Below, piece by piece: positions 1,515-44,557 of a stretch of 64,000 bases of DNA. This DNA comes from Actinoplanes oblitus (GTDB lineage: Bacteria > Actinomycetota > Actinomycetes > Mycobacteriales > Micromonosporaceae), in contig NZ_CP126980.1 in assembly GCF_030252345.1 (NCBI RefSeq), positions 4,107,501 to 4,171,500 of the forward strand. The letters are read 5' to 3'. How positions within the stretch are numbered: the stretch's first letter is position 1; each line of letters opens with the position of its first letter. A model generated the notes under the pieces. The model had not been told where the DNA came from. It ran no database searches and was given only the letters and a program-made list of their open reading frames with translations. The translations under genes were made by a program, and so were the position numbers.

Positions 1515-1895
1515 GGCTGCCTTGACCTCCCCGATTGTGCCGGGTGATCTTCGCATCATGAGTCGGTGTTCGAGGGAGGCGGCTCGTTCACAGGCTGATC
1601 GTCTCGAGCCCGCGGACAAAGTTCGATGGCACAAACCCGCACGGGGACAAAGTTCGCTGGCACGAGGGGCACACCTCGATGGCAAAGGACAACTTCCGGC
1701 CTGGTCACGGCCTGCGGTCAGTGCCGTGAAGACCGCTGTAGTAGTGACCTGGCCGAGATCGGCGACGTCGCTGTGCAAACTTGTGCGGATCGTCTGCAGC
1801 TCCGCGTCGGTGAGCGGACGGCGTACGCAAAAAACGCCATGGCCGGTGCCGGGAGACGAGGGTGTAAGCATGTGGCCTCCTCGGGCATGAGGATC
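1515..1895 (-). other. Decayed region with 5' end of a lost small gene
   Basis: In the frame of the DUF4259 gene there is an ATG at 1871 preceded by GGAGGCCAC, giving a plausible start MLTPSSPGTGHGVF followed by TDAELQTIRTSL. The sequence then degenerates into arginine- and cysteine-rich text containing a short tandem repeat. It looks like the first 60 or so codons of a gene that lost its remainder and now runs open into the DUF4259 frame. Confidence 0.35.
1614..1663. repeat. Two-copy 19-bp direct repeat
   Basis: GGACAAAGTTCGATGGCAC at 1614-1632 and GGACAAAGTTCGCTGGCAC at 1645-1663 differ at one base and are separated by 12 bp. They sit at the point where the upstream coding fragment loses coherence, so they may be the scar of a lost insertion. 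Confidence 0.6.
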
Positions 1896-6415: not shown

Positions 6416-7356
6416 GGCCGGTCCCGCACCGGCGCCGCAGCGGTGCTGTCGGTCAGGAGCCACGGGACGCGGTGCGCGGGTATCCGGGCGCCGAGCAGCC
6501 ATCCGATCAGGTTGATCAGGCCGTTGCGCGGTGCGAGCGCGCGGGCCCGCTCGTGTGCGGCGCCGGCGAGGGCGTCTTCGCCGCGGCGCCACGCGGACCA
6601 GGCGGTCAGGGCCGCTGCTGCTGTCGCGTCGCCGCCGGGGGTGCGGCGCAGTGCGTCGAGCCAGAGGTCACGCTGCCACAGTGCGTCGCCGGTGTGGCGC
6701 CAGGCCTCGATCAGCAGCCCGCGTTCGCGTAGCGCCACGGTCAGCTGGGCGACCTCATCGGCGGTCAGTGATTGCCCGGACCGGGCCTGGCCCATCAGCC
6801 GGCTCAGGTCTGCGGTGCTCGGCTTGTAGCCGATGCTGATCTGGTCGAGGGCGGCACGGGTGGCGGCTTGAGCGACCGGGTCCGCTGCGACGAGCGTCTG
6901 CATGGCTGCCGCGTCGGGCGCGACGCTGACTCCGGCCGCGGCCAGCTTGACGGCTGTGCGGGTATCGTCGGCGACGATCCGGATGCCGTCGGCGGGCGTG
7001 CAGTCGCAGCCCGGGGTGAGACAGAAGAATCGGCTGCCGTCGTACAGATATCGGCCGGTGACCGGCGCCATCAAGGACAGAACCTCGGCGGCCGCCGCGA
7101 CGATGGGCCGGGCGGTCTGCCCGTAACCGACCAGAACAGTGCCCGACGCGCCCGGTGGCAGCCGCAGCGCCAGATGCTCCAGCAGCGCCTCGATCGGCTC
7201 GTTCAGGGCAAGGCACGCGGTGTTGCGCGCGGTCCGATCCGGCGAGACGAAGATCGCGACGAGCGCGTCGGTGGGGTGATAGCCGAGCAGGTGCGGTACC
7301 AGACCGAGCACTTCGCTGGTGGTGTGGGTACGGGCCGGTACAAAGGAACCGGACAT
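6412..7356 (-). CDS. DUF4192 family protein (copy 1)
   Basis: A 314-residue protein from the ATG at 7356, with GAGGAGGT eight bases upstream. VPHLLGYHPTDALVAIFV near residues 21-38 is the signature of DUF4192, a family widespread in actinomycete plasmids and chromosomes. LVGYGQTARPIVAAAAEVL and a Cys-rich FFCLTPGCDCTPADG follow, and a helical C-terminal half has a DALWQRDLWLDALRR repeat-like stretch. A paralogue lies at 12078-13019. The function is unknown. It heads a two-gene operon with the GTGA-overlapping downstream gene. Confidence 0.85.
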   Translation of the reverse strand: MSGSFVPARTHTTSEVLGLVPHLLGYHPTDALVAIFVSPDRTARNTACLALNEPIEALLEHLALRLPPGASGTVLVGYGQTARPIVAAAAEVLSLMAPVTGRYLYDGSRFFCLTPGCDCTPADGIRIVADDTRTAVKLAAAGVSVAPDAAAMQTLVAADPVAQAATRAALDQISIGYKPSTADLSRLMGQARSGQSLTADEVAQLTVALRERGLLIEAWRHTGDALWQRDLWLDALRRTPGGDATAAAALTAWSAWRRGEDALAGAAHERARALAPRNGLINLIGWLLGARIPAHRVPWLLTDSTAAAPVRDRP

Positions 7357-7389
7357 GGTGGTGACCTCCTCGAGGAAGGGAGTTCGCTG

Positions 7390-8234
7390 CTATCGCAGGT
7401 GCACGGACGAGACGTCGTTGCAGGTGACGGTGTCACCGCTGCTGAACATCAGCTGTCTCGCCTGGCGAGCGACGATCAGTGCTTCGGTGCGGGTGACCAG
7501 GTCGTCGCCGAAGTGGCCGGAGAACACCACGGCGCGCATGCTTTCGTGTGGTTCCGGATCGGCGAGACGCTTGTCGACCAGGTGGTTGAGTTGTCGCAGG
7601 AGCGTGTCGGGCCAGTCGCGACCGGAGTGAACCAGCGACACCGCATCGCCGCCGAGGGCCGACTGGCTGCCGGCGTACGGGACCCGCTCGATGAGGGTGG
7701 GCTGATTGGCGCCCACCATCCGTGATCAGGGTCGGTGGTGATCAGCTCGGCGATGGTCTCGGCGATCTGCTGCGGGCTGGCGCCGGCGGCGACGGCGAGA
7801 TCGGACGGGGTCTGGGAACTGGTGATGGTCAGGGTGTCGGTGTGAGCGAGCGTGGTGTCCCCGGTTCTCCAGCCGGGACCGGCGGTCACCGGCCACGGGT
7901 CGTCGCCGGTACCGCGGTGCGGCCACCGGCCCGCCCTCAGCTCCACGAACGGCCCGCGCGCGTAGATTTCCGCGTACAGGCGCTGTGCACGCAGTTGCTG
8001 CACGACCGCCATGAGCAGGACAATCTCGGGCTGATAGCTCAGGTCATAGGCGGCGCGGAAGACGGCCAGCAGGGCGGGGTCGGGCTGAGCCGGTGCGTCG
8101 TCCGGCAGCCACCGGCGGCGGAAGTCTCACAGCGTGCGATCGTCGCTCGCCGGCTTGAAGCCCTGTTTGGTGTTGACGCCGTACTGGCGCACGAAGTGTT
8201 CGATCTGTCGCAGGCGCGTTACGTCGATCGGCAC
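7390..8234 (-). pseudogene. Hypothetical gene broken by a stop codon and a frameshift
   Basis: A single coherent leftward protein text is spread over two frames. From the GTG at 8234 it reads VPIDVTRLRQIEHFV, meets an in-frame TGA at about 8130 (context DDRTL-stop-DFRRRW) and continues YDLSYQPEIVLLMAVVQQLRAQ. At about 7718 it needs a minus-one shift to continue as NQPTLIERVPYAGSQ and end at 7390 (VTCNDVSSVHLR). Two separate lesions in otherwise good coding sequence suggest a decaying gene. A recoded stop or two overlapping genes are less likely. The original function is unknown. Confidence 0.6.
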
Positions 8235-8318: not shown

Positions 8319-8528
8319 TCAGAGCAGTGCGCGGGTGATGCACCGGGTCCCGGTGACGGCGGCTACCAACGGAAACACGAGGATGATCGGCAGGTTGTCG
8401 GCGGCCACATCGACCGGCAGGGCGACGACGCAGACGCCGACCACGGCGGCCGCCGTCGCCCAGACGAACGCGATCAAGGCTGTGCCAAGACCCGGGTGGG
8501 GGTGGCAGGTGTGCTTCTCGCCGTTCAT
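8319..8528 (-). CDS. Small two-helix membrane protein
   Basis: A 69-residue protein starting MNGEKHTCHPHPG, with two hydrophobic segments (TALIAFVWATAAAVVGVCVV and IILVFPLVAAVTG). The ATG overlaps the stop codon of the upstream gene as ATGA (8525-8528), implying coupled translation. Many actinomycete plasmids carry such small membrane genes. The function is unknown. Confidence 0.65.
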   Translation of the reverse strand: MNGEKHTCHPHPGLGTALIAFVWATAAAVVGVCVVALPVDVAADNLPIILVFPLVAAVTGTRCITRALL

Positions 8529-9022
8529 GCGCGCCCGCCACGGCCACCGATGGGCAGTGTTGTGGCCGCGGCCCTGAGCAGCCGGTTGGCGGTGTCGACC
8601 ACGACGGCGAGCACCGCCAGCGGCGGGTCGTCGGCGTTGAGGAACAGCTCGGCGTTCACCCGCGGCGACGCCAGGGTGGTCCGCTGGTCGAGCGTCATCA
8701 GCAGTCGGAAGCCCCCGTCGCGGCGTTCGCCGCTGACCGTAGGTTCGATCCGGATGCCGGTGACCGGCGGATCGAAGGTGAGCACTCCGTGCTCGACGCA
8801 CTCGTCGATCAGTTGGGCGACGTCACTGCCGAAGCTGCGGCTGCCGGCGTCCAGGCAGGTCACCAGCGACGGGGGAAGACATGATCCGATGTCCTCGACA
8901 GGGCCGGCCATAGCGTTGGTGAGCTGGTGCAATAGGTCGATGTCGGTGCTCACCGGCTGGCCGGAAGGCTGGGGGCGGGCAGACAGCAGACGCGCGATAC
9001 GGCCGGGAAGTCTTAGACGCAT
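8525..9022 (-). CDS. Hypothetical protein
   Basis: A 165-residue protein from the ATG at 9022, preceded by GGAGGG at six bases. It begins MRLRLPGRIARLL and contains DIDLLHQLTNAMAGPVEDIG, LIDECVEHGVLTFDPPVTG and a C-terminal DPPLAVLAVVVDTANRLLRAA. No known motif is visible. It is the first gene after structured element B and is translationally coupled to the small membrane protein gene. Confidence 0.6.
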   Translation of the reverse strand: MRLRLPGRIARLLSARPQPSGQPVSTDIDLLHQLTNAMAGPVEDIGSCLPPSLVTCLDAGSRSFGSDVAQLIDECVEHGVLTFDPPVTGIRIEPTVSGERRDGGFRLLMTLDQRTTLASPRVNAELFLNADDPPLAVLAVVVDTANRLLRAAATTLPIGGRGGRA

Positions 9023-9140
9023 ACGGATCCCTCCAGAAGCACGGGAGGCCAGGCCCATCCGGGGAGGGGCCTGGCCGTGAGCGGGGGCGGCGGTTGTGCG
9101 AACCCCTGGCCGGTGGCGGGTACCGATCCGTGCCGCGGGG

Positions 9141-9276
9141 GCTGGCGCGATCCGCGCGGGCCGGCCGATCGGCGCAGCCCCGCCAGACCCGCCGGTAGCA
9201 CGGCCACGGGTGGCGATCGCGGCAACCGGCGGGTCTTGCGTGGGTAAGCCGCGGTCGGCCAGGATCCGCCGCCAGC
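9141..9276 (-). promoter_or_regulatory. Structured leader element B, relative of element A
   Basis: The outer arms are GCTGGCGCGATCC (9141-9153, identical to element A) and GGATCCGCCGCCAGC (9262-9276). The inner arms are AGACCCGCCGGT (9185-9196) and ACCGGCGGGTCT (9225-9236). Compared with element A, the inner stem has A-T replaced by G-C on both sides, so pairing is preserved while sequence changes. Both elements precede a leftward gene by about 70-120 bp. Confidence 0.6.
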
Positions 9277-9330
9277 CACCCGGCACCGGGCATTGCCGCG
9301 CAACGGCGAGCACCGGCAGATCACCGCCGG

Positions 9331-9692
9331 TCAGGTGACGACCGCCGGCTCTTGGACGCCGAGCAACCGCATCGCCAACTCCCATGCCTTCTCTCGCAGC
9401 CGATCAGCTTGTTCCCGGAGGGCGAACTCTTCGTTTGCCGGGCCCGACTCGTTCGCCTCGTCGCACAGCCGGTTCGCCTCCGCTTGGGTCTTGGCCGCAG
9501 CAGCGACGAGCTACCCGACGTTCCCGAGGATGGGGGAGTGCAGTGCAACGAGCGCAGCGCAGCGGCGAACGCCTGCCCTTCCGCGTCGCCGTGCAGGACG
9601 ACGTCGCCGGCGTGCGTCTCGATGATGTCCGCAGGACCGGTGCGGACGCCAGCCGATGACCCACCCCAGGTTGACGTAGCTAGCCAGCGCAA
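9331..9692 (-). pseudogene. Frameshifted hypothetical gene
   Basis: The N-terminal part in one frame reads GPADIIETHAGDVVLHGDAE and AFAAALRSLHCTPPSS (from about 9640 to 9520). In a second frame the text continues AKTQAEANRLCDEANESG and REQADRLREKAWELAMRLLG and ends at a TGA at 9331. The second frame carries a TAG immediately upstream of the helical part, so a single indel near 9515-9525 best explains the arrangement. The C-terminal coiled-coil tail is typical of small actinomycete hypothetical proteins. Confidence 0.5.
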
Positions 9693-9806
9693 CGCTCAGG
9701 GGATTGACGGTCGTTGGGCGATGGTGATGTTGTTTGGCGGTCTTGGCGTGTTGCCGGGGCCGTCGCGTAGCGCCGCAGATGTCAGCGGTTCAGGCGCCGC
9801 CACCGG

Positions 9807-10310
9807 TTACCAGTCCCAGGACGGTAACGCGTCGATCCGGTCGGCACCCGCGTTGAGCAGGATGTATTCGGCGCTGAACCGGTGGGCGTACTGCCAGAGC
9901 CGCCACACCTCGGCCGGCACACTGCCTGAGAAGTCAGCGTGATGTGCGGCAAGGTCGTCCGGCACCGTGAGGAGCCAGCCGGTGCCGGTGAAGCAGGCGT
10001 GGACACCACTGTAGGTATTGAGCCGGTCGCAGATCGGCCGGGGTAGGTGGCCGGTCGACAGGTCGATGACGGTTATGACCCGTGGCCCGCCGGTTGCCCG
10101 GCCCAGTTCGGTCTGAGCGCGATGCAGCAAGTGATGCAACTCCGGTGGTGTGCCGGTGAGCTGAATGCCGCCCTCGCCGTTACCGGCGATGATCGAGTAG
10201 ATGCAGTCCGGTTCAGGCTTGTCGACGGTCTTGGCAGCCGCAAATGTCTCTGGGAGGCCGAGCACATCGACCTGATCGATCGCCTGCACTCGTTGCCGTC
10301 TGATGGACAT
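9807..10310 (-). CDS. Hypothetical protein
   Basis: A 167-residue protein from the ATG at 10310, with GAAGGTGA eight bases upstream. It contains PDCIYSIIAGNGEGGIQLTG, PRVITVIDLSTGHLPRPICD, FTGTGWLLTVPDDLAAHHAD and a C-terminal RIDALPSWDW. No family is recognised. It sits 48 bp downstream of the zinc-motif gene on the same strand and is probably co-transcribed with it. Confidence 0.6.
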   Translation of the reverse strand: MSIRRQRVQAIDQVDVLGLPETFAAAKTVDKPEPDCIYSIIAGNGEGGIQLTGTPPELHHLLHRAQTELGRATGGPRVITVIDLSTGHLPRPICDRLNTYSGVHACFTGTGWLLTVPDDLAAHHADFSGSVPAEVWRLWQYAHRFSAEYILLNAGADRIDALPSWDW

Positions 10311-10357
10311 GACTGTTCACCTTCTTTGTGGCAGTGGGGAATCCGTAGGTGCCTGGG

Positions 10358-11911
10358 TCAGTGGCTGGCATGCGTTGGGTTGGCCTGCGACGCGAAGTCG
10401 TGTTGGGAGGGCACGTTCGGCGACGACACCGCATCCAAGGCGAGCCGGCTGCGTTCGAGCGCCAGCAGCGCTCGGGCGGGGGCATGCCAGCTGTCGTCAC
10501 CGCCCGGTGCCGGTGTGCGACCTTCGGCGAGATCGCGCAGAGCGGGAACCTGGTCGGCGTAAGAACCGCCGATCTTGAGCAGGTTCGTGCAAGCACGCAG
10601 AGTCGACTCCCGCATGTTCTTGGTCCACGGGCCGGACGACGTGCCCCACCGCTCGCGTGGGCGGTGGTACAGCGGTCCTTCGCATAGGTGGTAGCCCAGC
10701 CAGACGACCGGCGGGTGCAGGCCGGCGGCTTCGGCGAGCAAGGCGACCTTGTCGTAGTCCCAGGCCCGGCCGCCGCGCTGCTGTCGGTGACCGATGGTCT
10801 TCGGGCGGGTCAGCGTGCGCCAATAGTCGAAGTCAACCGCAGTGGAAGCGACCAGGTCCTTCTCGTCGGTGAACCCGCCGGCGGCCAGCGCGTGCGGGAG
10901 CCGAGCGGTGAGCAGGTGCGCGAGTTCGCGGCGCACGGCAGGCACGGCTGGATCGTCGGCTGCGGCGGTCCGTCGCTGCCGTAGTGCCGGCACCGGGTCG
11001 ACGTCGACGTCGACGTCGAGTTCGGGCAGGGCAGTGCCATCGGCGAGGTAGCCGAGCAGCAGTGTGCCGAAGTCGCACAGCATGTTCTCGAAGCCGCGGC
11101 TGCGGTCTCCGTAGTCGAGGATCGGCAGCCACCGGCCGCCGCCACGATGCGCGACCCGGTGCGCCGCCTCGTGCAGCAGAACGTGCAGCGTGCGGGGCCG
11201 CTGGGCGAGAACACTGCGGCTGATCGCGATGTCGCCGGTGGCCGGGCTGTAGAAGCCGGAGGCGCACGGAGACGACTCGCTCTTGGAATAGACCCGGACC
11301 CGGTCGATCGCGAACGGCCCGATCGCCCGGCGGATCAGCTGCCGCGCGCTGGTGAGCACGGTCCGCTCGTCGGTGGTCAGTGACTTGTCCGCGACCCACG
11401 TGGTTCTGCCGCGGGTGCGTTCGTAGTGGCGCGCCCGCCGGATGCGGGCCAGCTGTACACCGAGGCGGTCCATCAGCGCGAACCGTAGGTGCTCGGGCAG
11501 CCCGGCGGCGGTGACCTCGGTGAAGCCCTTGTCTTTCAGGTCGAGTTTGGCTTCCTCATGACCGCTGATGGTGAAGAAACAGTTCTCCGGCAGATTCGCG
11601 CGCCCCCACGTGCGCCATGCCGCCCTTGCCCGCGGGCTGCTGCCGCTCGGGTGGGAGAAGAACTGCTCGGATTCGCGGAGCTTTCCGCCGCCGAGCACGT
11701 GCCGGGCGAACCGGTCGACGACGCGAGGATCCTCGCTGACAGCGAGGATGGTCTGCACGCTGTCGCGCAGGGCGCCGGCCTCGATGACGGTCCGGTCGCG
11801 GTTCTGAAGGCCCTTGCTGTCCAACGGGAGGTCGTAGGAAGCCACCAGGCCGGGCATGCGGGTGACCAGCACGCCACCGATCCAGATGCGTCCCGGTTCT
11901 CCGTCCAGCAC
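10358..11911 (-). CDS. HExxH-motif zinc protein, putative metallopeptidase
   Basis: A 517-residue protein from a GTG at 11911. Around residues 245-256, LHVLLHEAAHRVAHR carries an HExxH zinc-binding motif in a context like ArdC/IrrE-type peptidase domains of mobile elements. An N-terminal region (WIGGVLVTRMPGLVASYD) precedes it, and a long C-terminal half has FDYWRTLTRPKTIGHRQQRG and ERWGTSSGPWTKNMREST. Directly upstream the same frame reads a Cys-rich CCNCGRFRALAEPGYQP with no start codon, so the true 5' end may be longer and frameshifted. Cleavage substrates are unknown. Confidence 0.65.
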   Translation of the reverse strand: MLDGEPGRIWIGGVLVTRMPGLVASYDLPLDSKGLQNRDRTVIEAGALRDSVQTILAVSEDPRVVDRFARHVLGGGKLRESEQFFSHPSGSSPRARAAWRTWGRANLPENCFFTISGHEEAKLDLKDKGFTEVTAAGLPEHLRFALMDRLGVQLARIRRARHYERTRGRTTWVADKSLTTDERTVLTSARQLIRRAIGPFAIDRVRVYSKSESSPCASGFYSPATGDIAISRSVLAQRPRTLHVLLHEAAHRVAHRGGGRWLPILDYGDRSRGFENMLCDFGTLLLGYLADGTALPELDVDVDVDPVPALRQRRTAAADDPAVPAVRRELAHLLTARLPHALAAGGFTDEKDLVASTAVDFDYWRTLTRPKTIGHRQQRGGRAWDYDKVALLAEAAGLHPPVVWLGYHLCEGPLYHRPRERWGTSSGPWTKNMRESTLRACTNLLKIGGSYADQVPALRDLAEGRTPAPGGDDSWHAPARALLALERSRLALDAVSSPNVPSQHDFASQANPTHASH

Positions 11912-12026
11912 GCATGCTCCGGGGGCCTGCGGCGGCTGGTAGCCCGGCTCGGCCAGCGCCCGGAACCGACCGCAGTTGCAGCACGGCGTTCCGCGAGCGC
12001 GGCGATTCTTCGAGAGAGTTCGGCTG

Positions 12027-12065
12027 CCGGTGTTCCGGTGGCGCGGATGGCCACCGGAACACCGG
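12027..12065 (-). terminator. Hairpin terminator after DUF4192 copy 2
   Basis: A perfect 15-bp inverted repeat, CCGGTGTTCCGGTGG and CCACCGGAACACCGG, with a 9-base loop, 13 bp after the stop at 12078. Confidence 0.8.
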
Positions 12066-12077
12066 GCACCGCGGGCG

Positions 12078-13019
12078 CTACGGGATCAGGTGCCGCGGAT
12101 CGAAGTCCTCCGGCAGTGGCCAGGGCAGCGTGTCCGGATTGATCGGCGAGTTGAGCAGGACACCGATCAGGTTCGATAGCGTGTTGCCGGGCATAGCGGT
12201 GGCCGCCGTGTCCAGAGCGGTGCGGGCCAGCGCCGGCTCACCGCGCCGCCACGATGTCCAGGCAAGCAGGTTCGCCGGGGTCGCCACGTACTGCTCGGGA
12301 ACCCGACGCGTCAGGTCCAGCCACAGGGCGCCCTGCCACGCGGTGCCGGTCGTGGCCTCCCAGGCTGCGGTGCGGCCATCTACGGTGGTGAGCGCTACTG
12401 CCAGGAGCGCGACCTGGTCGTCGCTGAGCCGCTCGGCGGTCTCCGCACAGGCCATGCAGGAGTGCACCACACCCACCGGATCCGCTGGCGGGCTCGGCAG
12501 GCCGGCGATGAGCGCCGCGGTGCGGGCCTGGGCTTCGGTGTCGGCGGCGGCGAGAGCTTCGACATCCTGGCGGGACGGCAGCGCGACCCGGCCCTGCAAC
12601 GTCATCTCGGCAGCCATGACGCTGCCGGAGACGTCCAGAATCGCGCCGCCGGCGGGGGTGCAAGGGCACCCCTGGTTCAGGCAGTAGTAGCGGTCGTTGT
12701 TCACCAGCAGACAGGCCTGGACCGATACGGCGTGATGCAGCCGGTCAGCGATCTGGATGAGCGGGTCGCGGTCGGTCATCGGCCCGTAGCCGATGATGAA
12801 CGCGGCTGTGGTGTCCGCGCTGATGGCCGTGGCGATGCTGTTCTGCACGATCGTCGGGGCCGGCTTCTGCCGGTCGGTGCTGAACACGCACTTGACGCGT
12901 CCGTTCTCGGTGACGAACACGACCACGACGCAGTCGCGGGGGTGGTACCCCATGAGGTAGGGAACGGTGGCCAGCAGGTCGGCAGGACCACGCACGGTCA
13001 TGTACGCCGATTCGGGCAT
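12078..13019 (-). CDS. DUF4192 family protein (copy 2)
   Basis: A 313-residue protein from the ATG at 13019, with AGGAGTG six bases upstream. It has the family signature VPYLMGYHPRDCVVVVFV near residues 19-36, a central FIIGYGPMTDRDPL and a Cys-rich YYCLNQGCPCTPAGGA, exactly parallel to copy 1, and similar C-terminal helices (GALWLDLTRRVPEQYVATP). It is clearly paralogous to 6412-7356 but diverged. The function is unknown. It follows the interrupted dprA and a hairpin-rich leader. Confidence 0.85.
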   Translation of the reverse strand: MPESAYMTVRGPADLLATVPYLMGYHPRDCVVVVFVTENGRVKCVFSTDRQKPAPTIVQNSIATAISADTTAAFIIGYGPMTDRDPLIQIADRLHHAVSVQACLLVNNDRYYCLNQGCPCTPAGGAILDVSGSVMAAEMTLQGRVALPSRQDVEALAAADTEAQARTAALIAGLPSPPADPVGVVHSCMACAETAERLSDDQVALLAVALTTVDGRTAAWEATTGTAWQGALWLDLTRRVPEQYVATPANLLAWTSWRRGEPALARTALDTAATAMPGNTLSNLIGVLLNSPINPDTLPWPLPEDFDPRHLIP

Positions 13020-13072
13020 GGGTCACTCCTAGGCATCGCAAACGGGTGTGGCCCGACTGGTGAAGCCCCGGG

Positions 13073-13113
13073 GGTGTACCGCGATCGGGGGAGGCGTCCG
13101 ATCGCGGTACACC
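13073..13113 (-). terminator. Long perfect hairpin before DUF4192 copy 2
   Basis: A 16-bp perfect inverted repeat, GGTGTACCGCGATCGG (13073-13088) and CCGATCGCGGTACACC (13098-13113), with a 9-base loop. It lies between dprA's 3' end and the DUF4192 start, so it may terminate dprA transcripts or act as an attenuator or operator for DUF4192. Confidence 0.65.
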
Positions 13114-13153
13114 GGTCCTGGGCGGGCGCCGGGCCGCGCTGACCCGGTGCGCG

Positions 13154-13287
13154 TACCGGCCCTGACGGCCCAGGGCAGGCCAGGGCCCAGCCCGGGCATC
13201 CCACCAGCGACGACGCCACCCTCGGAGGCCGGTATGACGGTGGGATGGCGGGTGCCGCGCCCTTGCCGGCCCGGGACGGGGCCGGTA
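13154..13287 (-). promoter_or_regulatory. Third structured leader region
   Basis: The outer pair is TACCGGCCC (13154-13162) and GGGCCGGTA (13279-13287). The inner pair is CATCCCACC (13197-13205) and GGTGGGATG (13239-13247). The architecture resembles elements A and B, with a long-range outer stem around an inner stem containing CCCACC, but the primary sequence differs. It may be a distant member or a coincidence of G+C-rich sequence. Confidence 0.4.
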
Positions 13288-13335
13288 CAAGCGCGTCAGG
13301 GCAGCGACGGCCAGAGCGCCAGCCCCGACCACGGT

Positions 13336-13575
13336 CTACCCGCGTGGCCGGGCGATCTCGTCCAGGATGTCGTCAACGCAGGTGACCACCCGCGCGGCCG
13401 GGTGCGTGCGCAGCAGTTCGTGGCAGCCCTTCGACATCTGCGAGGTCACCGAGCCCGGCACGACCAGCGCCGGCCGGTTGAGGGCGATCGCCCGGCTGAT
13501 CACCTGCAGGGATCCGCTGCGGGGTGTGGCTTCGACCAGCACTGTGCCGGCCGTGGCCGCGAGGACTCTGTTTCG
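13336..13575 (-). pseudogene. dprA: dprA 3' fragment (C-terminal part)
   Basis: Leftward text RNRVLAATAGTVLVEATPRSG continues IALNRPALVVPGSVTSQMS and GCHELLRTHPAARVVTCVDD. This is the C-terminal part of the Rossmann domain of DprA/Smf, the protein that loads RecA on incoming single-stranded DNA. Homology stops abruptly at the codons for RNR (13567-13575). The missing N-terminal part lies 7 kb away at 20551-21363 and ends in HRFL. The two halves rejoin in frame with one codon between them. Confidence 0.85.
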
Positions 13576-13703
13576 CAGCAGACCTGTTGACCGAACTACC
13601 GCGCTGAGGAACGGATCCACTCTTTCGGTATACGGAGCGTGTCCGCTGGCGTGACATCGACGTTGGTCACCAGACAGTTGGTCTCCGAGCGGGAGTCGTC
13701 GGC

Positions 13704-14954
13704 GTGGATTATTTTGAGCGGCCCGAGCGAGATGTGGCCTCGATCAAGTTGCCGGAGTGGGGTCGAGTCGGTCCGTCCGACGGGCCGGTGCCGTTCACGG
13801 TCTACGACGATGCGGACGAACCGATCGAGGCGGTACACCGGTACCTTCGGGACTTCGTCGCCCGAGGCAACAGCGCCGGTTCCGTCCGGAGTTATGCCTA
13901 CACCTTGCTGCGCTGGTGGCGGTTTCTCCGTGCTGTCGACGTCGCTTGGGATCGGGCGACCGCCGTTGAGACGAAGGACCTGGTGCTCTGGCTCCAGCAC
14001 ACTGAGAAGCCGGTCGCGAAGCGCCGCGTCGCCTCAGCCGCGACGGCCGGAACCGTCAATCCGGTCACGCGCAAGGAGCACTTGGGCGACCAGTACAAGC
14101 CTCGCACTGTCCGGCACAGCAACGCCGTGTTGCGCGCCTTCTACGAGTACTGGATCGAGGAGGGGCAGGGTCCGCTGCTAAACCCGGTGCCTCGTGCTCG
14201 GCGGGGTGCCCGACCGAATGCACACCACAATGCGTTGGAGCCGTTCCGGCCGGAAGGCCGGCTGCGCTATAACCCCAAGGTCCCGAAGCAGAAGCCTCGG
14301 GCCATGCCGGACGAGGCCTGGCTCGATCTCTTCAAGGCGATGAAGTCGAACCGGGACCGGGCCATTCTTACGCTGGCGATCAGCACGGCGGCCCGCGCGA
14401 GCGAGCTGCTCGGGCTGCGCGCCTGCGACATCGACTGGGGTGACCAGCTGATCCGGGTGCGCCGCAAGGGCTCCGGAGCCGAGCAGTGGCTGCCGGCCAG
14501 CTCGGAAGCGTTCGTCTGGCTGCGTCTCTACCTCGCAGAGGTCTCTCGACTGCGCCCGGGCGACCCGCTTTGGTGGACACTTCGCCGCCAACACGATGGC
14601 GAACGCCCCAGACGCGTCGAGCTCACCTATGACGCTCTGCGAGCCGTCTTGCGCCGGGCCAATGGACTGCTAGGCGCGAACTGGTCGATGCACGACTGCC
14701 GGCACACCTGCGCCCTGCGAATGGCCAGGGACAAGAATCTGTCCCTGCGGGACGTCCAGCTTCTCCTGGGGCATGCCCACCTCACCACCACCCAGATCTA
14801 TCTCGAAGACGACGACGCGGAAGTGGTCAAGCGGGTTCAGGAGCACCACGCCGAACGCGGGCGCCTCCTCACCGCACCCCCACGACCCCTGCCGGCCAGC
14901 CGATACGACGCTGACGACATGTCGGTCCTCTTCGCCAATCGAGTCGCGCAGTGA
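13704..14954 (+). CDS. Tyrosine recombinase, TnpA-like
   Basis: A 416-residue integrase from a GTG at 13704 with CGGGAG about 9 bases upstream. The N-terminal SAM-like DNA-binding domain (residues 35-150) includes SAGSVRSYAYTLLRWWRFL. The catalytic residues are present: Arg in TAARASELLGLRA, the HxxR box in MHDCRHTCALRMA, His in LLLGHAHLTT and the Tyr nucleophile in TTQIYLED. The frame is open upstream to the dprA junction (WRDIDVGHQTVGLRAG), so translation might begin earlier at a non-standard codon. It is coupled to the next recombinase by a GTGA overlap. Confidence 0.92.
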   Translation: MDYFERPERDVASIKLPEWGRVGPSDGPVPFTVYDDADEPIEAVHRYLRDFVARGNSAGSVRSYAYTLLRWWRFLRAVDVAWDRATAVETKDLVLWLQHTEKPVAKRRVASAATAGTVNPVTRKEHLGDQYKPRTVRHSNAVLRAFYEYWIEEGQGPLLNPVPRARRGARPNAHHNALEPFRPEGRLRYNPKVPKQKPRAMPDEAWLDLFKAMKSNRDRAILTLAISTAARASELLGLRACDIDWGDQLIRVRRKGSGAEQWLPASSEAFVWLRLYLAEVSRLRPGDPLWWTLRRQHDGERPRRVELTYDALRAVLRRANGLLGANWSMHDCRHTCALRMARDKNLSLRDVQLLLGHAHLTTTQIYLEDDDAEVVKRVQEHHAERGRLLTAPPRPLPASRYDADDMSVLFANRVAQ

Positions 14955-17329
14955 CCACGACTGCAGCGGTCGTTCCGCCGCACTGGCGACAGGTGACCCA
15001 GGGCGAACTGATCACCCCCCGCGACCATCCGCTGGGCCGGCTCGACCGGAGCGACATCGACAAGGTCCTCGACGCGCTGCCTCAGCTTCCGACATGGCCG
15101 GCCGTCGGCGCTGACCGCAACAGATGCCGTCGCGGAACCGGCCAGATCCTGGAATGGCTCGCCACCTATCCCGGAGACGGGTGGCAGGCTCGCTGGCTGG
15201 CGGCAGATATCCACGACCGATCCTGGCGAGACATGGTCATGGCGGCCACCTACCCCGCCCCCGAAGACCAGCTCCTTCAAGGCATGCGAGCCCTACTCCT
15301 GCTGCGCGTCCTTCGGCCCAGTTACTGGTTTCTGCACCGATATAAGGCCTACGCCCTCTTCGACGAAGTCCGCCTGACCGTCAGCCCGGACCTGTTCACC
15401 CGCGCGGCCTCCGAGGCGACGCGCCTGGGCATGATCGGCCGCCAGGCAAACCAGCCGCTGATCACGCTGGCCAAGTTGGTGCTGCACTCCGGCAAGGACG
15501 TCGGCGAGCTCGGACCCGAGGACTTCTTCCTGGCCCGGGCCTGGAGCGTCCGCGCAATCGGCCGGCACCTGCCCGGCCTGCACGCTGCTTGGGAGGTGCT
15601 CCGCGGCCTGGGCATCTTGCCCGGCGACCACACGTTCCGCGCCGCGATCCGCGTCGGTCAGCGACCGACCGCGGAGATGATCGACGTGTTCAACTTGCGC
15701 TCCCAGACCGTCCGGGACGTCCTGATCCGTTACTGCGAGGAGCGGCGCCCGGCGATGGACTACGGCTCCTTCCGCGGCTTGATCGGCCACCTGGTCGGCA
15801 ACTTCTGGGCCGACCTGGAGAAGCACCATCCAGAAATCGACTCGCTTCACCTGCACCCTGATGTCGCCCTCGCCTGGAAAGAACGGGCTCAGTTCGTCAC
15901 CGATCCTCGCTACCCGGGTCGCCCCCGGCGCGACCGCATCGCGCTGTTCATGCGTGTCCGGGCGTTCTACCTCGATCTCCAGGAGTGGGCCCTGGAGGAT
16001 CCGTCTTGGGCGCCGTTCGCCGCGCCGAGCCCGATCCGCAAGAGCGACACCGAGGGCTACGCCAAGGTCAAGAAGAGCGCTACCGCGGAAATGCACCAGC
16101 GCATCCGTGATCGGCTGCCCCACCTGCCGCTGCTGGTCCAGGCAGCGGAACGCAACCGGGCCTACCACCAGGCGCTACTGTCCAGCGTCGAGGCAACCCT
16201 GGTCGGCGACACGTTTGACTACAACGGCACCGTGTTCCGTCGCACTGCCCCTCAGACCGCCACGCACCGCAGCCACCGTCAGCGCGGTCCCGAGCACGTC
16301 CACGCCACCAACTTGGCCAGCGACGAGCAGATCAACGTCACGGTCGCCGAGAACTCCGCGTTCTGGAGGTGGGCGCTCCTCGAGACGCTGCGGCATACCG
16401 GTGTCCGTCTCGAAGAGCTGTTGGAGATGACCCATCTGGCGCTGATCTCCTACAAGCTGCGCGACACCGGTGAAGTCGTCCCGCTCCTGCAGATCGTCCC
16501 GTCGAAGTCGAACAGCGAGCGGCTGTTGCTCGTCACGCCGGAGCTCGCCAGCGTCCTCGCCACGATCATCAAGAGGATCCGGGATCCTCAGACCGGGCGG
16601 GTCCCGCTCGTCGCCCGATATGACCCGCACGAGCGCACGACCGGGCCGATGCTTCCCCACCTGTTCCAACACGTTCTCGGCTGGCGGCGCGAGGTGATCA
16701 GCCAGCGTCTCGTTCAGCGAAATCTCAACGACATCCTGCGCCTCGCCGGTCTCACGGACGCCGCCGGCGAGGCGCTCCGCTACACCCCGCACGACTTCCG
16801 GAGGATGTTCGTCACCGAGGCTGTCGCCGGCGGGCTGCCGGTTCACATTGCGGCCCGGCTGCTCGGGCACGCGAACCTCAACACCACCCAGGCCTATCTC
16901 GCGGTCTTCCAGGACGACCTGATCCGCTCCTACCGGGCGTTCGTCGCCGAACGACGAGCCTTGCGCCCGGCCGGCGAATACCGGGATCCCACGGACGCCG
17001 AGTGGGAGGAGTTTCAGCAGCACTTCCAGCTCCGGAAGTTGGAGCTCGGCACCTGCGGCCGGCCCTACGGCACCCCCTGCAATCACGAGCACGCCTGCAT
17101 CCGATGCCCGATGCTCCGCGTCGACCCCGACCAACGCCACCGCCTCGTCGAGATCGCGACCAACCTCGAGGAGCGCATCACCGAGGCCCACGAGAACGGG
17201 TGGCTCGGCGAGGTCCAAGGGCTCCGGGTCAGCCTCGATGCCGCCCGCTCGAAGCTGGGCGCACTCGACCGGCAACCGTCCACCGGACCAGTGGACCTCG
17301 GGCTTCCCGTCGTCCGGGACCCGGGCTGA
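14951..17329 (+). CDS. Large tyrosine recombinase, TnpB-like
   Basis: A 792-residue protein whose GTG start overlaps the preceding stop. The C-terminal catalytic domain (about 460-680) has Arg in HTGVRLEELLEM, Lys in IVPSKSNSERLLLV, HDFRRMFVTEA as HxxR, LLGHANLNTTQAYLAVF for His and Tyr. A Cys cluster (CGRPYGTPCNHEHACIRCPM) follows, a zinc-ribbon feature typical of the large partner recombinase in Tn554-type pairs, and a coiled coil ends the protein. It is expected to act together with the upstream recombinase on the element ends. Confidence 0.92.
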   Translation: MTTTAAVVPPHWRQVTQGELITPRDHPLGRLDRSDIDKVLDALPQLPTWPAVGADRNRCRRGTGQILEWLATYPGDGWQARWLAADIHDRSWRDMVMAATYPAPEDQLLQGMRALLLLRVLRPSYWFLHRYKAYALFDEVRLTVSPDLFTRAASEATRLGMIGRQANQPLITLAKLVLHSGKDVGELGPEDFFLARAWSVRAIGRHLPGLHAAWEVLRGLGILPGDHTFRAAIRVGQRPTAEMIDVFNLRSQTVRDVLIRYCEERRPAMDYGSFRGLIGHLVGNFWADLEKHHPEIDSLHLHPDVALAWKERAQFVTDPRYPGRPRRDRIALFMRVRAFYLDLQEWALEDPSWAPFAAPSPIRKSDTEGYAKVKKSATAEMHQRIRDRLPHLPLLVQAAERNRAYHQALLSSVEATLVGDTFDYNGTVFRRTAPQTATHRSHRQRGPEHVHATNLASDEQINVTVAENSAFWRWALLETLRHTGVRLEELLEMTHLALISYKLRDTGEVVPLLQIVPSKSNSERLLLVTPELASVLATIIKRIRDPQTGRVPLVARYDPHERTTGPMLPHLFQHVLGWRREVISQRLVQRNLNDILRLAGLTDAAGEALRYTPHDFRRMFVTEAVAGGLPVHIAARLLGHANLNTTQAYLAVFQDDLIRSYRAFVAERRALRPAGEYRDPTDAEWEEFQQHFQLRKLELGTCGRPYGTPCNHEHACIRCPMLRVDPDQRHRLVEIATNLEERITEAHENGWLGEVQGLRVSLDAARSKLGALDRQPSTGPVDLGLPVVRDPG

Positions 17330-17397
17330 GAAGACGACACCACGCGCCTCGCGCGCAGGCGTCCGGTCGGAATGGTGTTCGTCCCCGAGTACAAGGA

Positions 17398-17425
17398 GGC
17401 CCTCCTCGCCGAAGCGAGGAGGGCC
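17398..17425. terminator. Bidirectional hairpin terminator
   Basis: A perfect 12-bp stem, GGCCCTCCTCGC and GCGAGGAGGGCC, with a CGAA tetraloop lies between the convergent recombinase operon and the small membrane gene ending at 17472. Confidence 0.85.
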
Positions 17426-17471
17426 GGATCGGGCCGGCCGCCGCGGAACAACCACGACGACCGGCGAACCG

Positions 17472-17672
17472 CTACATGCTGTTCACCATCACCAAGAGCG
17501 TGAAGATCAGCACGGAGAGCGTCATCACCGCGCCGAACGTTCCACCCGCGACGATCACCGCCTTCACCTTCGTCTGCTTCAACCACACCATTAAGACTGC
17601 GGCGCCGAGGCCGAACACCGCCGACATGGTAATAGCGACCGCCAGCCACAACCCGATGTTTTCGCCATTCAT
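17472..17672 (-). CDS. Small two-helix membrane protein of the element
   Basis: A 66-residue protein starting MNGENIGLWLAVAITMSAVF, with two hydrophobic helices (IGLWLAVAITMSAVFGLG and VIVAGGTFGAVMTLSVLIFT) joined by a basic loop MVWLKQTKVKA. It is transcribed toward the recombinases. No function is known. As the only leftward gene besides the AlpA-like protein, it may be cargo or a remnant of a TnpC-like position. Confidence 0.55.
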   Translation of the reverse strand: MNGENIGLWLAVAITMSAVFGLGAAVLMVWLKQTKVKAVIVAGGTFGAVMTLSVLIFTLLVMVNSM

Positions 17673-18121
17673 GACGTCACCACCGGAGCTGACTCGTTTG
17701 CCGCGTTTACTAACAGCGGCAACGACACCGTCAACGACTTTGGTTTACGAACGGCAACCAAGCGTTGTATTATCAACCTGATCAGTAACAAACCGAACCT
17801 CCAGCTGCTCGACACCGACCTGAGCTGCGGATTCGTTCGCGAGGCCCCGGGCTGCAACCCGGGGCTTCATCACGTCCGCGTCGACCCGAAGGTCGGCGCG
17901 CCCGCGGAACTATTCCCGCTCACTCTTCAGGTTAGAGCAGAATCCGCGAATGGTGAAACCCCCGGATGCGGCCCTCCTCCCGCGACGGGATTGTCCGGTT
18001 CGATAATTGAGTATCAATAAGGAAACTGTTCGGCGAAAAGGGAAAACGAATCACGCTAAACAGCCCACAGGACCCAAAGGTGCACGCACAGCTGACCTGA
18101 AGCGCCCTCCCCGCGCCCGGA
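17673..18121. other. Intergenic region of the element, hairpin and A/T-rich stretch
   Basis: No gene is recognised. The segment 17700-17810 is unusually A/T-rich for this window, and GTTGTATTATCAAC is a small palindrome. An 8-bp perfect hairpin, GCCCCGGG and CCCGGGGC, with a 6-base loop occupies 17844-17865. A second A/T-rich patch lies at 17995-18050. These could hold promoters or recombinase arm sites. Confidence 0.4.
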
Positions 18122-18337
18122 TTACGCCTCGCCCTCGTCGAGGTCGACCTGGTGGGGCCGGCGGGCCGCGATCCACGACTCGACGTCGTCGAAGTGCCAC
18201 ACCTTCCCCTGCCGCAGGTCGGCGACCGGGGCCGGGAAGTCGGCGCGTCTGGTGAGTTGGTAGACGCGCTGGCGACTGATGCCGCCGAGACGAACGCGGA
18301 TCTCATGGGAGCCCATGAGGCGGATCGACTTCGCCAT
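18122..18337 (-). CDS. AlpA-like helix-turn-helix DNA-binding protein
   Basis: A 71-residue protein from the ATG at 18337. MGSHEIRVRLGGISRQRVYQL then FPAPVADLRQGKVWHFDDVESW is the standard winged-helix layout of AlpA/MerR-like small DNA-binding proteins, which act as excisionases or regulators in mobile elements. No Shine-Dalgarno sequence is visible upstream, so leaderless translation or an upstream TTG start at 18379 is possible. It is divergent from the 507-residue cargo gene and could regulate it. Confidence 0.75.
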   Translation of the reverse strand: MAKSIRLMGSHEIRVRLGGISRQRVYQLTRRADFPAPVADLRQGKVWHFDDVESWIAARRPHQVDLDEGEA

Positions 18338-18601
18338 GCACGCGACTATATGCGTGAGACTATGCTGGGCGTTAGACAAGGCGAGTCTCGTGACGGCGGC
18401 CGCACGTCGCCGGCCGCCCGACGGCCTCAGCCTCGAGATGTCGGTCGGAGCCCATAAACTTCAACGCGGCAGCTGCTTGGTCACGACCCGGCAGCCCCCC
18501 GCCGGACAACTCTCCAGAAGATTTTGAAGATTTTTTGCCGGTACCCCGCTCTGACGGCCTGGAGGAGTAAGAGAGAACCACTCCAGACACGAAGGAGCAC
18601 C

Positions 18602-20125
18602 ATGAACGACAACGAGCCGGCCGCCGCGGAGAGCCCCGACTCGCTCACCACGCCGACCCGCCGGGGGATCCCCCTGGCCGCGGCGTTCCACCGGGCGGCG
18701 ACCGCGAACCCGAATCGGGCAGCTGCCCGGCTGGCTGCCATGTTCCACCCGGTCACCACGGCGGCACCGGGCACGCCCAGCGTCGTGGTGTCACCGCCGA
18801 AGGACATGGTGATCCGGCGCCGCCAGCGGGTTCTGACTCGCAGCGTCGCCTTCCGGGCGCGGCGCCGACTGATCGACGGGCGGTTCACCCGCCGCGACCG
18901 TGAAGCCGCCCAGCAGGCTCGTCGCCCCCGCCAACCCCGCGAGGCCCGCCTCCTCGCGCTCATGGAGGCTGCACTGTCCGGGCCGGCCGGCGACGGTTTC
19001 CGGAAGGTCTTCGCTGACTTCGCGAAGGCCGTCGCGAGCGTGGTCGCTCCCCTCCAGGAAACGATGCGTGAGATCGCGCAGATGGTGCTTCCGCCCGGGC
19101 TCCGGGTGTTCGCGCAGATGCAGGAGAGGCTTCAGCGATCCGTCCGGGTCCCGATGCCCGGCCCGCTGCGCCGTGTCCAGGAGCAGATCGCCGCCTACGC
19201 CCGGCCCACGTTCCGCGTCCCCCAGCGCATCCGGGACGCGGTGACCGGCACCTCCGACTGGCTCATGGGCAGCTTCCGGCACACGCGTGAGTGGGCTTCG
19301 GGCTTCATGACCTACCAGGCGAAGTTGAGGCAGCAGTTCAGCTCGATGGTGGGCTCCTGGAGCTGGAAGCTACCCGACCTCACCGAGATCGTCCGGCCGA
19401 TCACGGACACCATCACGAAGATCATCCGCGGCTTCGAATGGCCTGGCGGGTCGGCAATGACCAAGACGATCGTCGAGTGGGCGGTCCGCGCGGTCTTCTG
19501 GGCGGCCGTCCGGACCCGCGAGGCGATCATCCACGAGGAGAACAGCGAGGAGATCGTCAGGGAGTTCATGCTCGCCTTCCTGGACCTCTTCCCGAAAGGC
19601 CGGCCGCACGTCGAGGCCGCGAAGGAGGCACTGCTCGAGGACGCCTGGTTGAAGGCGGAGCCGAAGGACGTCAAGAAGGTGCTGCTCAAGCGGATCAGAG
19701 ACCTTCACCGCAACCATCGGATGGTCAGTGACACTGAGCTTCGGCACCGCCGCGTCGTGTCCCTGAACGCGCCGCTGAGTCCGGCGGACAGCGACAGCGA
19801 CATGGTTCTCACCTTGGTCGAGGCGCTTGCCGATCCCGACTCCGTCGAGGACTTCGTGCTCAACCTGCCCGAGTTCCGGGACCCCCGCATCGACCGCGTC
19901 CTCAACAAGCTCAAGCCCGGAGAACGAGAAGTCGCTGACCTCTATGCAGGCCACGACGACATGACCTGGGATCTAGCCGCCGCCGCTGCCGGTCAACCGC
20001 CGGCATTTGGCGAGCGCGTCCGCAGGAAGCTAATCCGGTTGGGTGACCAGTTCGACAGTCGGCAGGCCCGCGAACTCCACATCCCCAGCACGACGAAGCC
20101 GAGGACCAGGCCGGCGTTCAGCTGA
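18602..20125 (+). CDS. Unrecognised 507-residue cargo protein of the Tn554-like element
   Basis: Starts MNDNEPAAAESPDS with GAAGGAG five bases upstream. The first 120 residues are basic and low in complexity (RRRQRVLTRSVAFRARRRL). Residues 130-240 are amphipathic helices (VVAPLQETMREIAQMVLPPG, FAQMQERLQRSVRVP). Residues 285-310 contain hydrophobic and aromatic stretches (EWAVRAVFWAAVRTREAI). The last 80 residues resemble a sigma region 4-like helix-turn-helix (KPGEREVADLYAGHDDMTWDL then RRKLIRLGDQF). I know no family with this order. Its position between recombinases and the right end marks it as element cargo. Confidence 0.75.
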   Translation: MNDNEPAAAESPDSLTTPTRRGIPLAAAFHRAATANPNRAAARLAAMFHPVTTAAPGTPSVVVSPPKDMVIRRRQRVLTRSVAFRARRRLIDGRFTRRDREAAQQARRPRQPREARLLALMEAALSGPAGDGFRKVFADFAKAVASVVAPLQETMREIAQMVLPPGLRVFAQMQERLQRSVRVPMPGPLRRVQEQIAAYARPTFRVPQRIRDAVTGTSDWLMGSFRHTREWASGFMTYQAKLRQQFSSMVGSWSWKLPDLTEIVRPITDTITKIIRGFEWPGGSAMTKTIVEWAVRAVFWAAVRTREAIIHEENSEEIVREFMLAFLDLFPKGRPHVEAAKEALLEDAWLKAEPKDVKKVLLKRIRDLHRNHRMVSDTELRHRRVVSLNAPLSPADSDSDMVLTLVEALADPDSVEDFVLNLPEFRDPRIDRVLNKLKPGEREVADLYAGHDDMTWDLAAAAAGQPPAFGERVRRKLIRLGDQFDSRQARELHIPSTTKPRTRPAFS

Positions 20126-20148
20126 GCCCGTCCCTCCTGCGACGAAGT

Positions 20149-20182
20149 CGCCGCTCGCGACCGCGGACGGTCGCGAGCGGCG
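20149..20182 (+). terminator. Hairpin between cargo genes
   Basis: A perfect 14-bp inverted repeat, CGCCGCTCGCGACC and GGTCGCGAGCGGCG, with a 6-base loop, 24 bp after the stop of the 507-residue gene and before the small membrane gene. Confidence 0.8.
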
Positions 20183-20227
20183 AATCCCCAGCTTCTTCTT
20201 CTCGCCCGGCCTCCTGGAGGTTTCCCC

Positions 20228-20497
20228 ATGCCCGCGAACGCGGATGGCTCTTGCACGCCCAAAAACAGGAACACGACCCCAAACGAGTCCGACCCCAGCA
20301 CCGACCGCAGGGTGAAGGTTGTTGCCACCGGCGGCTGCAGCACGTTGTTGGTCTCGTCGCTCTCTCAAGCGTTGGATCTAGTTCCGGCTAATCTGCAGAC
20401 AGAGCTCCATAGCGGCATCGCCCTGGCCGCCACGCTCGGCCTGGCCTACTTGGTGCTCCCCCGCAAGGCAAAGATCACCCTGGAGTGGGAGCGGTAG
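20228..20497 (+). CDS. Small membrane-anchored protein of the element
   Basis: An 89-residue protein with CTGGAGG seven bases before the ATG. A polar N-terminus (MPANADGSCTPKNRNTTPN) is followed by two hydrophobic stretches (TGGCSTLLVSSLSQALDL and GIALAATLGLAYLVL) and a charged tail. It is the last gene before the right junction with dprA, and its small size and two helices recall a holin-like or accessory membrane component. Function unknown. Confidence 0.6.
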   Translation: MPANADGSCTPKNRNTTPNESDPSTDRRVKVVATGGCSTLLVSSLSQALDLVPANLQTELHSGIALAATLGLAYLVLPRKAKITLEWER

Positions 20498-20550
20498 TCA
20501 CAGACAGCAACAGCGGTCGGGGCTTACCGCCCCGGCCAGCAAGTCCAGAA

Positions 20551-21363
20551 AAGAAACCGATGCCGCACTGGTTCCGCACCGGGCGGCCATTCACTGATCA
20601 GCAGGCCACGCTCGGCGATCCGGTCGAACATCGCGGAGTTCCCGGCAGGGTAGGGCCGGTCGACACCGCAAGCGAGCATCACAGCCGTACTGCCGCCGGC
20701 CGCCAGCGTTGCCTGATGAGCAGCTGTATCCACGCCGTGGCCACCGCCTGAGGTGACCGTCCACCCATGACCGGCGAGACCGGTGGCAAGGACATCGCTG
20801 ACGTACATGCCGTAGGCGGTTGCGGCTCGCGCCCCCACGATCGACAGCGCCTGTGTGAACGCCTCGCTGACGGGCCGGTCGCCGCGAACCCACAAACACA
20901 ACGGTGGCCGGATGCCGTCTCTGGCCGGTCCGGGTGCGCCCAAGTCGACCATAGCCAGGTCGTTGACCGCTGTCGGCCATTCGCTGTCGGTCGGGACCAC
21001 CAGTCGTGCTCCGACGCGGTCGGCGCGGCGTAACGCGATCTCGGCGTGGCGCAGCGGGTCCACGGTGGCAAGGTTGACCTTGACCGCTTTGCGTAATGCC
21101 GGGTCGGCGATGTCGCCGGCCAGCACCTGCTGCAGGGCTGCGGGTGCGCCGTGCTGCTCGACCATCGACCAGACCGTCTGGTTGCCGGGCTCGGCTAGCA
21201 AGGTGAGCGCCACCCGGGCTATTCGGTTATCGGCAACATCGACCTCGCGTCGGGTGTCGCCCCTGGCGGACTCGTTCCGCTGGTCCAAGAGATTCTCACT
21301 TTCGTGAAGGCGAGATGTCGCGGGCCGCATTCGCTGGCGTCGGTCACAGGGCGGCCGCATCAC
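20551..21363 (-). pseudogene. dprA: dprA 5' fragment (N-terminal part)
   Basis: Leftward text with IARVALTLLAEPGNQTVWSM, DPLRHAEIALRRADRVGARL, IVGARAATAYGMYVSDV and TSGGGHGVDTAAHQATLAAG, the DprA Rossmann core with its GxGxGxD-like loop. It ends VRHRFL at 20551 and then runs into element sequence (WTCWPGR). The start is uncertain: ATG at 21363 or 21330. The reading frame joins the 3' fragment at 13575, so the break is an insertion and not decay. DprA function is presumably lost here, although a chromosomal dprA may exist. Confidence 0.85.
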
Positions 21364-44553: not shown

Positions 44554-44557
44554 GCTC

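Follow-up and report, generated by a model that had tools for sequence, protein, structure and literature searches.

A stretch of 64,000 nucleotides from Actinoplanes oblitus (contig NZ_CP126980.1, positions 4,107,501 to 4,171,500; hereafter the window) carries a mobile unit of 6,972 bp, extending from 13581 to 20552 and including its TnpA-side spacer and both terminal arms, which splits a dprA gene between bases 13580 and 20553, inside the codons of the RHRFL-x-RNR motif and with no target duplication. With a probability that we set at roughly 0.87, this element is a Tn554-related transposon of an actinobacterial type lacking TnpC, whose two recombinases, TnpA and TnpB, would join a circular form into a fixed dprA site, the hexamer GNTTYC between two arms. 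Comparison of the available junctions shows a single hexamer used in five genomes without target duplication, insertion in both orientations, 11-bp imperfect inverted terminal repeats and a target hexamer left at the TnpB side of the element. Throughout, L-numbers denote loci, G-numbers genomes and P-numbers proteins, and junctions are given on the element strand with the TnpA side first.

In the window the junctions read CTGTTTCGCAGCA-[GACCTG]-TTGACCGAACT ... AGTCCAGAAAA-[GAAACC]-GATGCCGCACT, so that the element ends, 11-bp imperfect inverted repeats, abut the spacer hexamers. When the flanks are read with the TnpB-side (right) hexamer they form one frame of 351 codons plus stop, passing through ...VRHRFLLRNRVLAAT... 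and VRHRFLLRNRV, whereas the TnpA-side (left) hexamer gives VRHPGLLRNRV instead. The original prediction, made from the letters of this DNA, had placed the break of dprA inside HRFL-x-RNR with the frame kept and one codon between the halves. Both points hold: the two open reading frames (ORFs) that contain the dprA parts (N-terminal, 20524-21363; C-terminal, 13336-13620; both on the minus strand) cover PF02481 in a complementary manner, the five genomes are broken at one hexamer, far from chance, and the intervening codon is CTG. Two details had to be amended, since the L of VRHRFL, taken there as dprA text at 20551, is coded by the element end (CTT), the target starting at 20553 on the N-terminal side and ending at 13580 on the other, and since the extent given there, 13336-21363, exceeds the actual element. 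The adjoining pair of tyrosine recombinases in a TnpA-TnpB arrangement, also predicted, is confirmed by the GTGA overlap of both ORFs and by a PF00589 match in each. Coordinates are collected in Table 1.

Table 1. Features of the element, of the interrupted dprA and of its neighbour (window positions).
Feature	Position	Strand	Basis or remark
Mobile unit	13581..20552	+	junction comparison with L026, L082, L100, L129; flank reading
TnpA-side spacer GACCTG, element-borne, differs from dprA sequence	13581..13586	+	junction comparison, flank reading
Left terminal arm TTGACCGAACT (inverse AGTTCGGTCAA)	13587..13597	+	found upstream of TnpA in many relatives
TnpA-like tyrosine recombinase, 416 aa	13704..14954	+	PF00589, E 2.2e-22
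TnpB-like long tyrosine recombinase, 792 aa	14951..17329	+	PF00589, E 6.6e-13
Small ORF, 66 aa	17472..17672	-	ORF list
Helix-turn-helix (HTH) / excisionase-like protein, 85 aa	18125..18379	-	weak PF12728, E 0.0021; phrog_2790 excisionase, E 1.7e-6; PADLOC PDC-M06B, E 1.3e-6
Cargo ORF3, 507 aa from ATG (533 aa from upstream TTG)	18602..20125	+	matches no known family
Small cargo ORF, 89 aa	20228..20497	+	in stretch common to window and remnant L100
Right terminal arm AGTCCAGAAAA	20542..20552	+	junction comparison
TnpB-side spacer GAAACC, dprA's own hexamer (GGTTTC on dprA strand)	20553..20558	+	junction comparison
dprA C-terminal part	13336..13580	-	PF02481 profile 145-208, E 3.3e-13
dprA N-terminal part (accessory dprA)	20553..21363	-	PF02481 profile 4-146, E 9.5e-34
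DUF4192 neighbour	12078..13019	-	PF13830, E 2.7e-52

TnpB was searched for in 60 relatives, in 397 genomes of the order and in 354 genomes of the family, where it matched at E <= 1e-60 in 43 of the 354. Wider DNA, in some cases a short contig, was compared with both dprA halves for 28 of these 43 (window included). The element splits dprA in four of the 28, namely the window, L026 (G032), L082 (G279, by its best named protein probably Micromonospora coxensis) and the remnant L100 (G538); an unsplit dprA lies within the stretch but outside the element in two (L032, L103), and no dprA is present in the stretch compared for the remaining 22. A fifth case, L129/L145 (G307), was reached from the dprA side: PF02481 finds the C-terminal part alone, directly preceded by an element right arm with two mismatches to that of L082, while TnpA and TnpB are no longer present there and the N-terminal part of dprA is lost. 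In all, five genomes share one dprA hexamer, C|GNTTYC|TG: the insertion is complete in the window, L026 and L082, whereas L100 and L129 are remnants. A scan of genome_contigs returned one short 40% match on a Bacteroidales contig, the phages two weak matches and viral_contigs none.

The TnpB proteins of both complete relatives are 71-75% identical to that of the window, and L026 is a minimal element of 3,789 bp carrying TnpA and TnpB alone. Its junctions are ...CTGAGGCACC-[GAACTA]-TTGACCGGACT on the left and GGTTCGGATAA-[GTTTCC]-TGATCCGGAAC on the right; those of L082 are ...CTGCGGCCAC-[GATGTG]-TTGACCGGACT and GGTTCGGAAAA-[GGTTCC]-TGATCCGCAAC, and the right junction of L129 is AGTGCGGAAAA-[GGTTCC]-TCATCCGCAAC. 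All three complete copies have the layout arm-hexamer-TTGACCGRACT ... arm-hexamer-target, in which the right hexamers (GTTTCC, GGTTCC, GAAACC) are dprA sequence, GNTTYC on the dprA strand within the codons R-F-L, and the left hexamers (GAACTA, GATGTG and GACCTG in L026, L082 and the window) differ from it. In L100 a TnpB piece (95%) and an ORF3 piece (90%) persist, and the right end abuts the C-terminal part of dprA. The original prediction had proposed a search for homologues at other dprA genes and an alignment of the junctions to define a core; the former yielded L026 and L082 complete with L100 and L129 as remnants, and the latter the core GNTTYC. TnpA and TnpB run with dprA in L026 and L082, as do the TnpB and ORF3 pieces of L100, and against it in the window, so insertion at this site occurs in both orientations; the target hexamer begins with G on either strand.

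These junctions also bear on a different account, in which dprA was broken by a deletion or a rearrangement and the presence of the recombinases is a coincidence. The decayed state of L129 and L100, where parts of dprA are lost, would fit it, but in the window the halves join without loss of a base when a single hexamer is kept between the flanks, L026 and L082 break at this same boundary, and uninterrupted homologues exist, so that we consider its probability close to nil. The candidate of random insertion or deletion was likewise discarded, being excluded by the junctions. Random target sites in relatives, or the want of an empty-site homologue, had been named in advance as grounds for abandoning the idea of a dprA attachment site: the dprA junctions show the identical hexamer, and uninterrupted dprA homologues lie beside DUF4192 in L032 and L120, the latter with one TAG. 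Since the closest relatives stand at the identical hexamer, dprA serves as a dedicated landing site for that element lineage.

The side at which the target hexamer remains could be decided for seven insertions, three in dprA (window, L026, L082) and four elsewhere (L136, L031, L029, L107), and in all of them it is the TnpB side, the TnpA-side hexamer not being that of the target. The most direct case is a pair of Pseudonocardia plasmids carrying one element in two sites (L136/L137; 4,150 bp at 99.98%), where the TnpA-side GCTCTG is constant and the TnpB-side hexamer differs (GCGAGT versus GGATGT). One of these sites, L136, reads AECESGGDW, which we take to be an Rpf motif, only with the TnpB-side hexamer; family searches with the Rpf-like pieces gave no match. 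In L031 the TnpB-side hexamer restores KYDGVRG of an ATP-dependent ligase, against KYDAWRG with the other, and the piece after the break matches PF01068 from profile position 38. The gene interrupted in L029 and L107 is that of an IS21-type transposase; it reads LVPVP with either TnpB-side hexamer and LVPKT and LVPRT with the TnpA-side ones, the L107 piece matching PF22483 and, weakly, NF033546. L092 (GmrSD_C, PF07510) shows the same polarity by one residue, and in L096 (PIMT-like) both hexamers keep the frame, so that polarity is not readable. An alternative model, with the left-boundary hexamer as target core and a right GNWAAG brought in by the element, was discarded, as the right end hardly varies (GATAAG, GAAAAG, GAAAAG, GTTAAG), the other spacer alone is a centre of symmetry for the arms, and the L136/L137 pair keeps its TnpA-side hexamer.

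Tn554 has radC as its target, inserts in one orientation and has its tnpA end on the left. The rule for Tn554, for strand-biased circularizing elements (SE; available text of PMC10214605) and for Tn552-II (available text of PMC12486829) is that the target hexamer is left at the TnpA side and the donor's at the other; if the left end of Tn554 is indeed its tnpA end, the polarity seen here would be the reverse. The elements share with Tn554 and Tn552-II the tnpA-tnpB order, a conserved coding target, the absence of duplication and a 6- or 7-bp footprint, the target of Tn552-II being yolD-like with a 7-bp att brought in, as far as PMC12486829 could be consulted. They differ in the absence of TnpC, which influences orientation in Tn554 according to the available text of PMC3414803, in their occurrence in both orientations, in the dprA target and in the TnpB-side target spacer. 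A strict copy of Tn554, with the target hexamer at the TnpA side, the donor hexamer at the other, one orientation and dependence on TnpC, would account for the two recombinases, the site specificity, the lack of duplication and the 6-bp footprint, which the accessible part of PMC10214605 gives as common to Tn554 and SEs. We hold it to be very improbable, as the dprA hexamer lies at the TnpB side in the window, L026 and L082, the Pseudonocardia element has GCTCTG at the TnpA side of both its insertions but a different TnpB-side hexamer in each, TnpC is absent, the TnpB match of L026 ending 43 bp short of the right arm, and both orientations are seen. Hence the likeness to Tn554 that had been predicted stands for the dual recombinase and the site specificity, and fails for TnpC, orientation and the side of the target hexamer.

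In the TnpC-less transposon that we favour, TnpA and TnpB together would join the circle of the element into the 6-bp GNTTYC spacer between two arms, both recombinases presumably contributing catalysis, and the element would carry the TnpA-side hexamer along, in which case its clean excision would give back an intact dprA. Insertion breaks the dprA that is hit, an accessory copy in the window and the gene at the housekeeping position in four relatives. That the whole actinobacterial two-gene class might carry its TnpA-side hexamer between sites and leave the target's at the TnpB side, as a mirror of Tn554 and SE in which excision could be scarless, with each clade recognising a different hexamer in the coding sequence of a conserved motif and one clade knocking out DprA in either orientation, is a broader proposition that we judge slightly better than even. 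In this wider family the left hexamer does not start with G in L084, L097, L098, L099 and L105, and spacer length may therefore differ there. The left arm is recognisable before TnpA in many relatives, some with only ~40% identity, and is not recognisable upstream of TnpA in L030, L032, L037, L038 and L093.

Van Houdt et al. 2012 (PMC3414803, available text) defined the class itself by adjacent short and long (611-828 aa) tyrosine recombinases without TnpC (Famint36/41). The same adjacent short and abnormally long recombinases (416 and 792 aa) are found here, TnpC is absent, and TnpB matches the listed class plasmids NC_008270 (40.5%) and NC_008697 (45.1%); a third gene has no room in L026, with 43 bp after the TnpB match and 121 bp before TnpA. 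Targets and junctions do not figure in that description, as far as its text was available, and the target, ends and spacer polarity are defined here. Weak matches to TnpB (22-25% over 31-36%, E 1e-9 to 2e-11) also occur on plasmids of Enterococcus, Mammaliicoccus, Lysinibacillus and Staphylococcus; they are annotated as integrases or unannotated and may be Tn554 relatives. SE and GInt, in the accessible text of PMC10214605, likewise have a short and a long tyrosine recombinase and imperfect terminal repeats, SE also with a 6-bp spacer, but carry four conserved genes versus two here (L026), and the spacer polarity is reversed with respect to SE. RIT elements consist of a trio of tyrosine recombinases, and two are found here. 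A TnpA subgroup of recombinases is named in the available part of PMC8138268. Elements targeting comM, comK, comFA, comYC and radC similarly occupy a conserved site in a gene of DNA uptake or processing; these elements are of other kinds, and the accessible portion of PMC4774983 does not name dprA as a target gene. The literature searched, which left most subscription journals outside its coverage so that an earlier description is possible, gave no account of insertion into dprA for such elements, and neither the dprA target nor the spacer polarity was found described there for the TnpC-less class (including the available text of PMC11472951). Our data thereby add dprA to the DNA-processing genes that serve as landing sites, indicate that TnpC-less Tn554-type transposons can occupy a single site in both orientations and that the published spacer rule is not followed throughout the group, and provide, in L026, a two-gene 3.8-kb element with defined ends, spacer and target that is small enough for direct testing.

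Several observations weigh against the favoured explanation. Complete dprA insertions total only three, and of the seven family genomes with TnpB at least 65% identical, four have the element in dprA; L096 (G450) is inserted in a methyltransferase-like gene, and G425 and G454 hold fragments, with dprA absent from the stretch compared. The target spacer of L100 is one base short, which may be expected in a decayed copy. Resemblance of the target to the element ends was scored with a weight matrix of nine element arms, dprA letters excluded, on eight intact dprA loci, two of which lacked the site pattern and were left unscored; in the other six the true site ranked 2/3626, 25/3623, 6/2724, 1/3629, 4/3440 and 26/3626, which speaks for the explanation. 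However, this resemblance lies mainly in the right target arm (3.9 to 9.3 bits); the left one (-4.4 to -10.1) barely exceeds background (mean -12.5, sd 5.7), and the target arms of L096 are at background (-10.0, -11.9) though its ends are in the matrix, so that the mimicry of the ends may be partly chance.

A tree built from 32 chosen TnpB rows (29 loci and three proteins) places the three complete dprA elements on one side of a branch with support 94/91, next to the metagenome protein P0003, while L096 pairs with P0007. The two ligase-site elements pair with 100/100, and the two IstA-site elements, which are not sisters, belong to a single five-member clade. Targets of the related clades are ATP-dependent ligase motif I (PF01068), Rpf, IS21 IstA and GmrSD_C (PF07510); histidine decarboxylase (L098) and Ssd (L104) are further interrupted genes by family match. 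The target thus tends, on these junctions, to follow the recombinase clade, repeatedly in a conserved motif. As the clade of L096 and more distant clades lie in other genes, dprA is a clade-specific rather than a class-wide target, and the dedicated attachment site that had been predicted is retained for the hexamer common to the relatives and qualified in scope, the dprA hit here being accessory. Such switching of motifs clade by clade offers a way to study how a pair of tyrosine recombinases acquires a new target. L031 and L035 lie in ATP-dependent DNA ligase genes, at the active-site lysine motif; only the left junction of L035 is fixed, its candidate right end being probably wrong, and the right end of L084 is not fixed with confidence either. 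On the Pseudonocardia plasmids L136 and L138 (~8410-15940) two recombinase pairs stand tail to tail, the L136 element lying in the Rpf-like gene.

The host genome, 9.8 Mb in one contig, holds the element in single copy and three PF02481 matches, an intact dprA at 8.506 Mb and the two halves in the window. The split gene is a second, accessory paralogue beside DUF4192, and another dprA of the host is intact. By synteny, the dprA hit in L026, L082, L100 and L145 would be the housekeeping gene: L026 aligns with the intact dprA locus of the host over ~1 kb upstream and 0.9 kb downstream, and a XerC-like recombinase gene (a weak TnpA match) lies 1-2 kb downstream of dprA in L082, L100 and L145, as in the intact L109. 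An intact PF02481 gene was not found in G032, G279, G538 or G307, an absence that is weaker for G032, a draft of 560 contigs with masked stretches. One could imagine that the attraction of dprA as a target lies in the block to natural transformation that follows from its loss and shields the element from removal, as an intragenomic conflict, and not in the conservation of its codons. The hits at the housekeeping position in four relatives without an intact PF02481 gene, and the mobile elements in comK, comYC, comFA, comM and radC of other bacteria (available text of PMC4774983), speak for this idea. We nevertheless find it unlikely, since the copy hit in the window is accessory with another dprA intact, the ligase, Rpf, IstA and HNH-nuclease motifs of other clades have no evident common link to transformation, and eight of 354 family genomes lack PF02481 (346 match), including the near-complete G295, G174 and G370, which implies that dprA is also lost by other routes. 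These three near-complete genomes belong to the Micromonospora-like genus g24. In G585 dprA occurs in two frames at one place, without the element. The right end of the element also continues in frame from an ATG into the C-terminal part of dprA (MILVVRKRFLIRNR in L082), at L082 ~7353-7400 (-), L026 ~6125-6175 (+) and L129 ~1490-1530 (+), so that a short DprA C-terminal protein could be made.

Among the genes carried by the element, motif scans indicate as likely catalytic residues R231, H330-x-x-R333, H357 and Y366 in TnpA and R486, H614-x-x-R617, H640 and Y649 in TnpB. The 66-aa and 89-aa ORFs had zero matches in PADLOC and PHROGs, and ORF3 had no explanatory match there or in the homologue search. 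Its 20 matches include itself, those with a named source all carrying Micromonosporaceae names, and an 87-residue piece is 90% identical in L100. A 65% relative of ORF3, with matching downstream DNA, occurs at L144 8955-10505 (G441), where TnpA and TnpB matches are absent from the surrounding 19 kb. The HTH/excisionase-like gene shares 80% identity over 163 bp with L001 2687-2881 (-), which lies immediately downstream of the intact dprA of the host; the same neighbour is present in L026, L110 and L111. It may have been captured from the housekeeping dprA neighbourhood or belong to a common excisionase family; a remnant of the C-terminal part of dprA, sought inside the element in this regard, was not found. 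Elsewhere in the window, positions 43300-50013 hold CRISPR-associated genes for a GSU0053-type protein and a Cas3-like helicase with an HD domain.

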